A stretch of 64,000 nt of DNA, from assembly GCF_007752135.1 (NCBI RefSeq), contig NZ_CP036298.1, positions 6,874,501 to 6,938,500 of the forward strand, read 5' to 3'. The position numbers and the translations under genes are program-made. Positions 27,645 through 30,805 of the stretch are shown piece by piece. Numbering within the stretch: the stretch's first letter is position 1; each line of letters starts with the position of its first letter. A model generated the notes under the pieces. That model searched no databases, had not been told where the DNA came from, and worked only from the letters and a program-made list of their open reading frames with translations. This DNA is from Aureliella helgolandensis (GTDB lineage: Bacteria > Planctomycetota > Planctomycetia > Pirellulales > Pirellulaceae).

Positions 27645-28247
27645 CTAGTGCATTCGCTGACGCCCAGACATCGCGTCGGCCAGGATTTCGCGGTTGGTGT
27701 GCTCCAACACACTACCGGTCGTAATGCCGCGGGCCAGCCTCGAAACCTGCACGGGGAAATCGGCTAGCTGGTTGGTGATGTACAGCGCCGAACCATCCCC
27801 TTCCACCGTTGGATTGGTAGCCATGATGATCTCGCTGAAATTCCCCTTGCGAACCCGCTCTACCAATTCATCAATGGTCAGCTGATCGGGCCCGATTCCA
27901 TCCAGGGGTGCAATGCGTCCTAGCAGAACGTGGTAGAGACCGCGGAAAACGCCCGCTTGCTCCATGGCCATCAAATCGCGTGGTTGCTCGACGATACACA
28001 GCAGACTGGTATCGCGCGACAGATCCGTACAGATGGAGCACAACGGCCCCTCGGACAAGTTGAAGCACTCGCTGCAGTACCGGACGTTCTCGCGGACGTT
28101 GCGTATCGCCTCACTCAGGGCAAGCGCCTCCCCCTTGCTAACGCGTAGCAGATGGTAGGCCAAACGTTCAGCCGATTTGCGACCGATTCCGGGTAAACGC
28201 CCTAGTTGGTCAATCAATTCATTGATGGAACTTGATTCTTGGGCCAT
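27645..28247 (-). CDS. recR: Recombination protein RecR
   Basis: The 200-residue product has the N-terminal helix-hairpin-helix (LPGIGRKSAERLAYHLL), a C4 zinc finger (CSECFNLSEGPLCSIC), a Toprim domain (LLCIVEQPRDLMAMEQAG) and the conserved IIMATNPTVEGD motif. RecR forms a clamp that with RecO (and RecF) loads RecA at gaps. It is the last gene of the ffs-dnaX-ybaB-recR cluster on the minus strand, an arrangement also known from Bacillus. The gap to ybaB is 52 nt. Confidence 0.97.
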   Translation of the reverse strand: MAQESSSINELIDQLGRLPGIGRKSAERLAYHLLRVSKGEALALSEAIRNVRENVRYCSECFNLSEGPLCSICTDLSRDTSLLCIVEQPRDLMAMEQAGVFRGLYHVLLGRIAPLDGIGPDQLTIDELVERVRKGNFSEIIMATNPTVEGDGSALYITNQLADFPVQVSRLARGITTGSVLEHTNREILADAMSGRQRMH

Positions 28248-28299: not shown

Positions 28300-28641
28300 T
28301 TAGAGGCTGGATAGAGCGTCATCCAGTCCCGGAAGATCGATCCCACCTGTAATTTGACGCATCTTTTCAACACTCAGCTTCCTGACTTTGGTCAGCGCTT
28401 CATTCATGGCCGCAGGAATGAGCTCCTCGAGCATCTCTTGATCATTCTTGTCAAACAACTCGGGAGAAATCCGTAGGCTCATGACCTGCCCCACTCCATT
28501 GATCTCGACGATCACCATATCTCCGCCCGCACTACCGGTGGCTAGTTCGGCAGCTAGTTCTTCGCGCATCTCTTTGACGCGTTCCCCCATGGAACCAGCA
28601 TTGCGCATGAGTTGGGCCAGGCCGTTTAGATTCTTAAACAT
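28300..28641 (-). CDS. ybaB: YbaB/EbfC family nucleoid-associated protein
   Basis: The 113-residue product matches the family: an N-terminal helix (MFKNLNGLAQLMRNAGSM then RVKEMREELA), the central GDMVIVEINGVGQVMSLRIS sheet, and the C-terminal helix with MNEALTKVRKLSVEKM. Members form dimers that bind DNA and are commonly found between dnaX and recR, exactly as here. The C-terminal GGIDLPGLDDALSSL matches the usual GG-PGL ending. Confidence 0.95.
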   Translation of the reverse strand: MFKNLNGLAQLMRNAGSMGERVKEMREELAAELATGSAGGDMVIVEINGVGQVMSLRISPELFDKNDQEMLEELIPAAMNEALTKVRKLSVEKMRQITGGIDLPGLDDALSSL

Positions 28642-28771: not shown

Positions 28772-30805
28772 TTAGCCCGGCGGTGGAATTCTAGGGGGAT
28801 CCACTCGCACGACTTCAGCATCCAAGACTTCGCAGACTTTCTTTACGAACGGATCCTCGGAGACTTGCCGCAATTTCTGCACGCGAATGGTGGCTTGGGG
28901 TGTTGCGGCGACCAGCTTTGGCGGCTCACCAGGTGCACAGGAAAAACTAATGCGTACCGTACGCCCCAGGGATTGGTCCAAGGTCTGTTGCAGTAGTGCC
29001 CGGCGATCCGCCTGCTCACAATAGTCGGTAATTTTAGTGGCGCCTGGCGGATAAACGACGTTCCAACTATCACTCCCCTGGGGCTCCACCGCGATGGCCA
29101 TCCCGGCAAAATCAGCCAACATCCCGTCAATCGAACTCACCGCCTTTTTCCAAGCGGCAAGCGCTTCCGTCGAGCCGTGGATTGGGGCTGCGGGCTGGCG
29201 TTGGGCAGCAGATGCGCTGGCAGGTGTCGCTGCTGGTTCCGTCGCAGGTGCAGCGGGTGCGGGTTTGGTCTGGGCCGAGGTGGACGATTCGAGGGCAGGT
29301 GTCGCGACCGCATTCGCTAAGGTTTGTGACGGCGGTGATACGGCGTTCGCAACGGCAACCGACTCTGGTGGAGCAGGGGCAGGGGCAGAGTTGCCTGGCG
29401 GCGACGGATTGCTCACTGGCGGTGCTGCCGATTTTGCCGCGACGGGAGTTGCGACCGATGCAGTGGGCGCAGAGGCAGGCTGGGTTTCCCCCCGGTCCGC
29501 ATCGTGGCGTTCTGCTGGCCGAGCAGCTGCGGGGATCGCTGGGATCGGGCGAGCTGGTGGCGTCGAAACGGGCTCGGCTACGTTGGGGCTATTGTTTTTT
29601 TTTTCGCCTGCACTCGCCGCTGCCGGCCCACCGCCCGTCGTAGTACCAAGTCGCAATGCGGCCTCCAACAGTGCTGGAATCGATGCCAATTTTTCCAATT
29701 GACAGATCTGCACCAAGGCGACTTCCAACAGAGTGACTGCCGAAACGCTGGTCCGCATGCGAACCAACGATTCGTCAACGATCTGAATCGCCGACAGAAT
29801 CGTCTGCAACCCCCAGCGACTCGCCAACTCCTGGAGTTGCGGATGCCCCACGGGATTGGCTAGCTTCAGCAAGTCGGGGCCACCGCCTACCCCCACGGCC
29901 ATGATATCCCTGAAGTAGTTCAAGAGCTGCTCTGCTAGCTGCCCGGGATCTGCGCCAGATCGGGTCGCTTCCTCGGCAATGGACAACGCTTTGAGCGCGT
30001 CGGCGTCACAGAGCGCTTCGGCAATTGCCAACAAGCGTCCCTCATCGGCGGTTCCCAGCAATTGATGCACTTGTTCGACCGAGATGCGATCGGTGGAAAA
30101 GCTCATCACCTGCTCAAGCAGCGACTGACTGTCGCGCATCGACCCGGCCGCGCGACGCGCTAACAGCGCCAGGGCTTCATCATCGGCCGTAAAGCCTTCA
30201 GCGGTAGTAATTTCTTTGAGGCGTTTTTGAATCGCTTCAAATTTGACCGGAGCGAAATCAAATCGCTGGCAACGGGAGAGAACCGTGATGGGAATTTTGT
30301 CGGGGTCGGTCGTACAGAAGATAAATTTGACGTGTGCCGGCGGCTCCTCCAATGTCTTCAACAGAGCGTTGAAGGCTTGGTTGGTCAGCATGTGGACTTC
30401 GTCAATGATATAGATTTTGTACCGCGATCGACTCGGCCGTACGTTGACGTTGGCGCGCAGCGTGCGAATCTCTTCGATACCACGATTGCTCGCACCGTCG
30501 ATCTCGATCACATCCATGTCCTCTCCAGCGTCGACCGCTTGCGCGATGTCGGCGGCCAATTCGGGGGCAATGCCCTCGGGAGAGTTTAATGCCTTGGCAA
30601 ATATTCGTGCCGTCGATGTTTTGCCGACACCACGCGCGCCGGTGAACAGATAGGCATGTCCAACGCGACCGGTCGCAATGGCTTTTTCGAGCGCCTGAGC
30701 GACGTGCCCCTGCCCAACAAGCTCATCAAATGCGAGCGGACGATAACGCCGCGCTACGACGGTGTATCCGGCGGCGGAGTTGGAATCAGTGGCTTCGGTA
30801 ACCAT
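28772..30805 (-). CDS. dnaX: DNA polymerase III subunit gamma/tau
   Basis: The ATG at 30805 gives the usual start (MVTEATDS...YTVVARRYRP); an ATG at 30856 would add 17 residues. The 677-residue tau form has the clamp-loader ATPase: Walker A GARGVGKT (56-63), IYIIDEVHML Walker B, SRC sensor (LSRCQRFDF), and the collar domain to about residue 370. An Ala/Pro-rich linker (about 400-560) follows, then a C-terminal domain. Two oddities: the cysteines of the usual zinc module between Walker A and EIDGAS are all absent (ALNSPEGIAPELAADIAQAV), and ten consecutive A (minus strand, 29604-29595) form codons E401-K-K-N. One extra A (or a -1 shift) gives a stop after 405 residues, one A less a stop after 408, so a gamma form is likely. 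Confidence 0.96.
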   Translation of the reverse strand: MVTEATDSNSAAGYTVVARRYRPLAFDELVGQGHVAQALEKAIATGRVGHAYLFTGARGVGKTSTARIFAKALNSPEGIAPELAADIAQAVDAGEDMDVIEIDGASNRGIEEIRTLRANVNVRPSRSRYKIYIIDEVHMLTNQAFNALLKTLEEPPAHVKFIFCTTDPDKIPITVLSRCQRFDFAPVKFEAIQKRLKEITTAEGFTADDEALALLARRAAGSMRDSQSLLEQVMSFSTDRISVEQVHQLLGTADEGRLLAIAEALCDADALKALSIAEEATRSGADPGQLAEQLLNYFRDIMAVGVGGGPDLLKLANPVGHPQLQELASRWGLQTILSAIQIVDESLVRMRTSVSAVTLLEVALVQICQLEKLASIPALLEAALRLGTTTGGGPAAASAGEKKNNSPNVAEPVSTPPARPIPAIPAAARPAERHDADRGETQPASAPTASVATPVAAKSAAPPVSNPSPPGNSAPAPAPPESVAVANAVSPPSQTLANAVATPALESSTSAQTKPAPAAPATEPAATPASASAAQRQPAAPIHGSTEALAAWKKAVSSIDGMLADFAGMAIAVEPQGSDSWNVVYPPGATKITDYCEQADRRALLQQTLDQSLGRTVRISFSCAPGEPPKLVAATPQATIRVQKLRQVSEDPFVKKVCEVLDAEVVRVDPPRIPPPG
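29595..29604 (-). promoter_or_regulatory. A10 slippage site in dnaX
   Basis: On the coding strand the reading is GGC GAA AAA AAA AAC AAT AGC. Adding one A gives GAA AAA AAA AAA CAA TAG; removing one gives GAA AAA AAA ACA ATA GCC CCA ACG TAG. Both shifted frames end almost at once, right after the collar domain, as expected for gamma. This parallels the A9 transcriptional slippage site known in Thermus thermophilus dnaX. No separate Shine-Dalgarno or stem-loop stimulator was identified. Confidence 0.65.

Follow-up and report, generated by a model that had tools for sequence, protein, structure and literature searches.

An A10 run in a planctomycete dnaX gene is a probable site of programmed transcriptional slippage

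The dnaX gene in the stretch of planctomycete DNA analysed here (64 kb, hereafter the window) contains a run of ten A which is very probably a programmed transcriptional slippage site, yielding both tau and a shorter, gamma-like protein. Judged by comparison of sequences, the run is no accident. RNA polymerase is proposed to realign on the A10, giving rise to mixed dnaX mRNAs with 10, 11, 12, 9 or other numbers of A. Transcripts with 10 A, or with a number differing from 10 by a multiple of three, would encode tau of 677 residues or nearly so, while frame-shifted transcripts would stop 1 or 5 codons past the run, giving gamma-like proteins of about 405–409 residues. These would keep the clamp-loader core, without the linker and C-terminal part. 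In E. coli, domains IV and V of tau contact the helicase and the polymerase (PMC11470591; this and the other papers are cited from excerpts), and gamma would be a clamp-loader subunit without the parts that make these contacts. We infer polymerase slippage, together with any tau:gamma ratio and the role of gamma, from sequence.

The dnaX open reading frame (ORF) runs from an ATG at 30805 to a stop codon ending at 28772. It spans 677 codons, the length originally predicted for tau. When the whole genome was searched with profiles, this gene was the sole match to TIGR02397 above the cut-off (417.7 bits against a cut-off of 250). Its Pfam layout consists of a delta2-type AAA domain (residues 32–187), the DnaX lid (192–237) and domain III (241–374); the tau-only part gave no Pfam match at an E-value of 0.001. 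The T10 of the forward strand is an A10 on the coding (minus) strand of dnaX, in the context GGC GAA AAA AAA AAC AAT AGC CCC, and agrees exactly with the ten A of the original prediction. It lies 59% of the way through the gene (E401 of 677). Domain III ends 27 residues before the run, and an Ala/Pro linker and the C-terminal part follow it, so that both shifted frames do end, as had been proposed, after the clamp-loader core and before the linker. The stops of these frames lie 1 and 5 codons past the A10. Recomputation gave the same product lengths as before: with one extra A, 405 residues ending in ...EKKKQ, and with one A less, 408 residues ending in ...EKKTIAPT. Coordinates are collected in the table.

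Table. Coordinates in the window of dnaX, its predicted slippage products and the adjoining genes
Feature	Position	Strand	Remarks
dnaX, DNA polymerase III subunit tau, 677 aa, ATG start	28772..30805	-	TIGR02397, PF13177, PF22608, PF12169
Clamp-loader core region, common to tau and the putative gamma	29684..30805	-	Pfam domains 32-187, 192-237, 241-374
A10, putative slippery run, codons E401 K402 K403 N404	29595..29604	-	A9-A11 in 87/93 usable Pirellulaceae genomes
TAG ending the predicted 405-aa product (one extra A)	29589..29591	-	Also the stop after a -1 ribosomal shift
TAG ending the predicted 408-aa product (one A less)	29578..29580	-	Frame same as with two extra A
Tau-only part, Ala/Pro-rich linker and C-terminal part	28772..29588	-	C-terminal residues match relatives
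ybaB/ebfC, adjoins dnaX downstream	28300..28641	-	TIGR00103, 77.8 bits
recR, third gene of the dnaX-ybaB-recR cluster	27645..28247	-	TIGR00615, 236.8 bits

Residues 70–103 of this DnaX (window 30497–30598, minus strand; AKALNSPEGIAPELAADIAQAVDAGEDMDVIEID) lack the usual four cysteines, which at this place we take to be a zinc module. At least four Cys are present there in 20 of 67 pattern-matched Pirellulaceae genomes, and in 18 of 18 genomes of a second planctomycete family of the same class (f3).

Conservation of the run and of the near stops across relatives had been set beforehand as a test of the prediction, and both were found. For the Pirellulaceae (f1), dnaX loci were taken from 97 genomes of 50 genera, out of 199 family genomes searched; they were picked by match rank and genus spread, with an addition mostly from genera g45, g46 and g67 that includes some short open frames, and none was chosen by its A run. 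A run of A9–A11 between codons 370 and 460 occurs in 87 of the 97 loci, or 87 of 93 usable genomes once three loci whose contig ends before the site (L011, L090, L146) and one gene disrupted close to the end of its contig (L164) are set aside. Breakage of the run by synonymous G, named in advance as the contrary case, is thus not what the relatives display. The run is kept in 44 of 49 usable genera. Within the source genus, all ten genomes with a contig spanning the site carry it (nine A10, one A9), a count that leaves out G002, which ends before the site, and G001, G003, G008 and G013, whose fragments do not span it. Across the 87 loci the length is A10 in 57, A9 in 28 and A11 in 2, and the run starts at codon position 2, 3 or 1 in 67, 16 and 4 loci, respectively. 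Its presence in all three codon phases indicates that nucleotides, not one peptide, are being kept. Six intact Pirellulaceae dnaX genes from five genera have no such run (L065 and L144 from one genus, L067, L068, L072 and L091; g19 twice, g21, g23, g33 and g60), so that the device must be dispensable or replaced there. Some loci carry two runs: in L165 (f1) two A10 lie 38 codons apart at the dnaX site, both within codons 370–460, and in five f3 loci (L122, L126, L127, L128, L130) two A9/A10 runs lie four codons apart (CAA AAA AAA ATT GAA AAA AAA A..).

Beyond the Pirellulaceae, the run was found in 18 of 20 f3 genomes. In a phylum-wide sample it is present in 121 of 181 genomes and 11 of 38 families, a sample in which f1 weighs heavily (93 genomes) and families other than f1 and f3 are represented in part by loci selected for short open frames. 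The loci beyond f1 comprise 30 best-scoring matches, 20 picked for short open frames and 39 among the matches listed; given this selection, the frequency of short or swapped genes beyond f1 and f3 is no population estimate. In family f32, two runs of at least nine A are found at codon 453, in loci that are AT-rich (GC 0.39 and 0.45); they may be unrelated. A titled set of 80 dnaX loci, which overlaps the other relatives' sample in at least three genomes, has A>=9 at the same place in 15: ten are planctomycete, Gemmata and Phycisphaerales among them, and five lie outside. These five are from Ignavibacteria/Ignavibacteriae (L217, L259), Bacteroidetes (L234, L242) and Verrucomicrobia (L268), and their A9 or A10 runs have both shifted frames closed within nine codons. 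On a dnaX tree (FastTree, 157 rows, 110 with the run) presence of the run changes repeatedly, 13 times in all. The tree was used for this reading only; f1 stands at 85 of 91 in it, since two contig-end loci with the run (L161, L162) were left out.

Long A runs are also rare in the source genome. The dnaX run is the sole stretch of at least eight A on either strand of the window and accounts for all three overlapping A8 matches there. This count, with 2.34 expected, was reached in 36 of 100 dinucleotide shuffles; being ordinary, it was dropped as an argument, and it is counts over the genome and across relatives, not window composition, that carry the case. The 8.44 Mb genome holds 18 A9 matches, which form 16 runs of at least nine A; two are A10 (dnaX and C1:3610156) and none is longer. 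Among the other 15 (14 stretches), five fall outside any mechanical ORF of at least 120 codons, and six are inside the first 18 codons of an ORF, one of which, in L102, is also at codon 38 of another ORF. The remaining four lie deep in ORFs, at codon 164 of 223 (L099), 387 of 466 (L101), 286 of 290 (L103) and 148 of 193 (L107). dnaX is one of few ORFs, though others exist, with an internal run of this length. The other genomic A10 (G000:C1:3610156, in L103) is at codon 286 of its 290-codon mechanical ORF, directly before the ORF end.

The near stops were examined with one full-length gene per genus (n=44), reshuffling the downstream synonymous codons 500 times and scoring a stop within 13 codons. 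In the -1 frame such a stop is present in 43 of 44 Pirellulaceae genera (23.9 expected, maximum 33), and in the +1 frame in 39 of 44 (15.7 expected, maximum 24). A near stop in each of the two frames is found in 38 of 44 genera, compared to 8.7 expected and a maximum of 15 in 500 draws. The exceptions are one -1 frame stop 30 codons off and five +1 frame stops at 14, 16, 28, 40 and 47 codons. Family f3 has both frames closed in nine of ten genera (1.9 expected, maximum 6 in 300) and a +1 frame stop in nine of ten (2.3 expected), while the excess is weaker in the other run-bearing families, with both stops in 7 of 9 (2.2 expected, maximum 5). Kinship was handled by the choice of one gene per genus alone, and genera are not independent; against this can be set an f1 control point, 40 codons downstream, which has the same relatedness among genera yet no excess of double stops (5 of 43, 6.3 expected). 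A polymerase adding one or two A, or dropping one, needs both stops, whereas a ribosome slipping back by one needs only that in the -1 frame.

This distinction bears on programmed -1 ribosomal frameshifting of the kind known from E. coli dnaX, in which the ribosome would slip on A_AAA_AAA or A_AAA_AAC and run into the TAG that closely follows, which would produce the 405-residue form. In the ribosomal FRAMESHIFTING test the window dnaX has both heptamers in frame, and they are unavoidable in any run of at least nine A. The near-universal -1 frame stop (43 of 44 genera) would suit such a shift, as would the genes of other planctomycete families in which an exact A7 stands in heptamer phase and the zero frame gives the short form (L180–L183, described below). 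Yet the +1 frame stop, useless to a ribosome slipping back, is in excess too (39 of 44 against 15.7; in f3, nine of ten against 2.3), and the runs are 9–11 long in any phase though seven would be enough. There is no conserved Shine–Dalgarno (SD)-like element upstream and no conserved hairpin downstream. None of six SD-like motifs scanned occurs in the 20 bases upstream of the run in the window dnaX, and SD-like tetramers occur there in only 4 of 44 Pirellulaceae genera. Over the 70 bases downstream, the mean folding z is -0.37 with 2 of 44 genera below -2, compared with -0.20 and 2 of 44 at a control place; for the window dnaX itself, z ranges from +0.68 to -0.53 over four window sizes. Codon phase was considered as an argument against the ribosome and dropped, because any A>=9 run holds an in-frame A_AAA_AAA; it serves here only to show that nucleotides, not peptide, are kept. 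Taken together, the excess of both stops and the missing SD-like element and hairpin fit polymerase slippage of the Thermus type better than ribosomal frameshifting of the E. coli type, which we regard as improbable.

The source genome has tRNA-Lys genes for both UUU and CUU (L288, L296). Thermus thermophilus has two lysine tRNAs as well, which may be relevant to slippage by the polymerase rather than the ribosome (PMC5009743). The rarity of long runs in the genome (16 of A>=9, two of A10), the two tRNA-Lys species and the T. thermophilus precedent thus count for polymerase slippage. Both tRNA-Lys also figure in a dense array of tRNA genes on one strand, which extends over 5547376-5554901 and of which the 3 kb of L304 (G000:C1:5551395-5554467) hold 28 (ARAGORN); both occur singly elsewhere too.

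Codon choice argues further that the site is programmed. Outside the run, Lys in Pirellulaceae dnaX is encoded by 944 AAG and 896 AAA codons, and despite this usage the run stays unbroken; with codons for the same residues drawn at gene usage, A>=9 would be kept in 6.5 of the 44 run-bearing genera. Slippage might instead be tolerated and non-programmed, if the run arose as a side effect of Lys-rich coding and the near stops served only to limit damage. Off-frame stops beside a slippery site would serve damage limitation too, and slippage in vivo on runs of nine A or T has been reported (PMC5009743). However, a single synonymous A-to-G change would abolish the hazard, yet 44 of 49 genera keep the run, and no dnaX ORF of the 93 usable genomes has A>=9 anywhere but in codons 370–460 (an A9 lies past the stop of L074, and an A8 inside L079). 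We therefore consider tolerated slippage very improbable. A short DnaX could also arise by proteolysis of tau, as described for gamma in Caulobacter crescentus (PMC5009743), with the run unrelated. Proteolysis could act in the six Pirellulaceae genes that have no run, but it leaves the conservation of the run and of its two stops unexplained, and as the source of a short form here it is barely credible.

Transcriptional slippage at the run would also bear on dnaX genes in which the two products appear to be swapped. Four Pirellulaceae loci (L082, L083, L115, L160) have a stop in the genomic frame no more than seven codons from the run, and their tau C-terminus, with 89 to 102 matches among other tau ends, is encoded in a shifted frame. 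Having the short product in the genomic frame, these genes are counted against the slippage reading of the window dnaX. They may be assembly errors, as most genomes are drafts in many contigs in which an A10 length could be off by one; L082 and L160 resemble the A10 sites of same-genus genomes minus one A. L173, from another family, has the swapped arrangement too (7 matches to tau ends), whereas in L184 just the open frame points to it (0 matches). In another four genes, L180 (f39), L181 and L182 (f4) and L183 (f56), an exact A7 lies in heptamer phase, the zero frame ends within six codons and the -1 frame is long. Matches of the -1 frame to tau ends number 3 (L180, weak), 10 and 6 in three of these genes and 0 in L182. 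Each of L181, L182 and L183 has one of two windows under a folding z of -2, and L180 has none, in a group of only four genes. These four are candidates for -1 ribosomal frameshifting with reversed polarity. The dnaX zero frame of L171, L175 and L176 (f10) and L170 (f36) ends at codon 387–403 and another frame has 5 to 17 tau-end matches, with no A run; these could be split or coupled genes.

If the polymerase supplies all three frames, the genomic length of the run may drift by one base, swapping which of tau and gamma is the unslipped product. It is conceivable, at somewhat less than an even chance, that the A run of Planctomycetia dnaX is a frame-agnostic two-product module. The four swapped Pirellulaceae genes would then already have changed over, and other planctomycete families would rely on ribosomal shifting at an A7, with gamma as the zero-frame product. 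Both mechanisms and both polarities would in that case be found within a single phylum, along with lineages that have neither.

Larsen et al. are said to have described, in 2000, transcriptional slippage on A9 in Thermus thermophilus dnaX. The precedent invoked by the original prediction agrees with what the excerpts of two papers say of this system (PMC1088944, PMC5009743). Like T. thermophilus, the present gene has tau in the genomic frame, nine or more A in its coding strand, a near stop in each of the other two frames and two tRNA-Lys species in its genome. The T. thermophilus run lies seven-eighths of the way through dnaX (PMC1088944), in contrast to the A10 here, which is at 59%, just past the clamp-loader core. 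The proposal that this planctomycete uses the Thermus arrangement is upheld by comparison with its relatives, with two refinements: the run sits at a different place in the gene, and it is not universal, six intact genes being without it.

Other known dnaX systems differ in further respects. In E. coli a -1 ribosomal frameshift occurs at A_AAA_AAG with an SD element and a hairpin (PMC5009743, PMC3711429); the window gene shares truncation to a gamma-like form soon past the shift site, and differs in its longer run, in having both shifted frames closed and in having no SD-like element or hairpin. PMC3711429, in excerpt, gives a two-ORF dnaX in 17 fs-genes of 12 genera, 12 of them with poly-A and nine of those with A10. 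There too poly-A lies between gamma and the tau-only part and transcriptional slippage is proposed, but, unlike in the window gene, gamma is read in the genomic frame and it is tau that depends on the shift. This polarity is found only in some relatives (L082, L083, L115, L160 and L173; less clearly L184 and L180–L183). The excerpted text of PMC3711429 names planctomycetes once, in a genome-count table, and its A10 species may include a planctomycete. In Blochmannia a homopolymer in dnaX has its frame perhaps set by transcriptional slippage; that run falls within the tau-only region, and the slippage proposed for it would repair a frameshift, not supply gamma (PMC3017870). The literature matches listed hold no report of slippage in planctomycete dnaX. 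The type of slippage is already known from T. thermophilus and PMC3711429, and the planctomycete case would be a new instance of it, well supported by comparison.

A mechanism shown in Thermus would thereby be extended to a large part of a bacterial phylum. Where slippage yields the shorter product, comparison is said to predict its functional importance only with difficulty (PMC1088944); the excess of stops in both frames over synonymous expectation offers a sequence test for telling polymerase slippage apart from a -1 ribosomal shift. In these planctomycetes dnaX may have a second product besides the annotated long DnaX, and dnaX genes that seem frameshifted at the run need not be broken.
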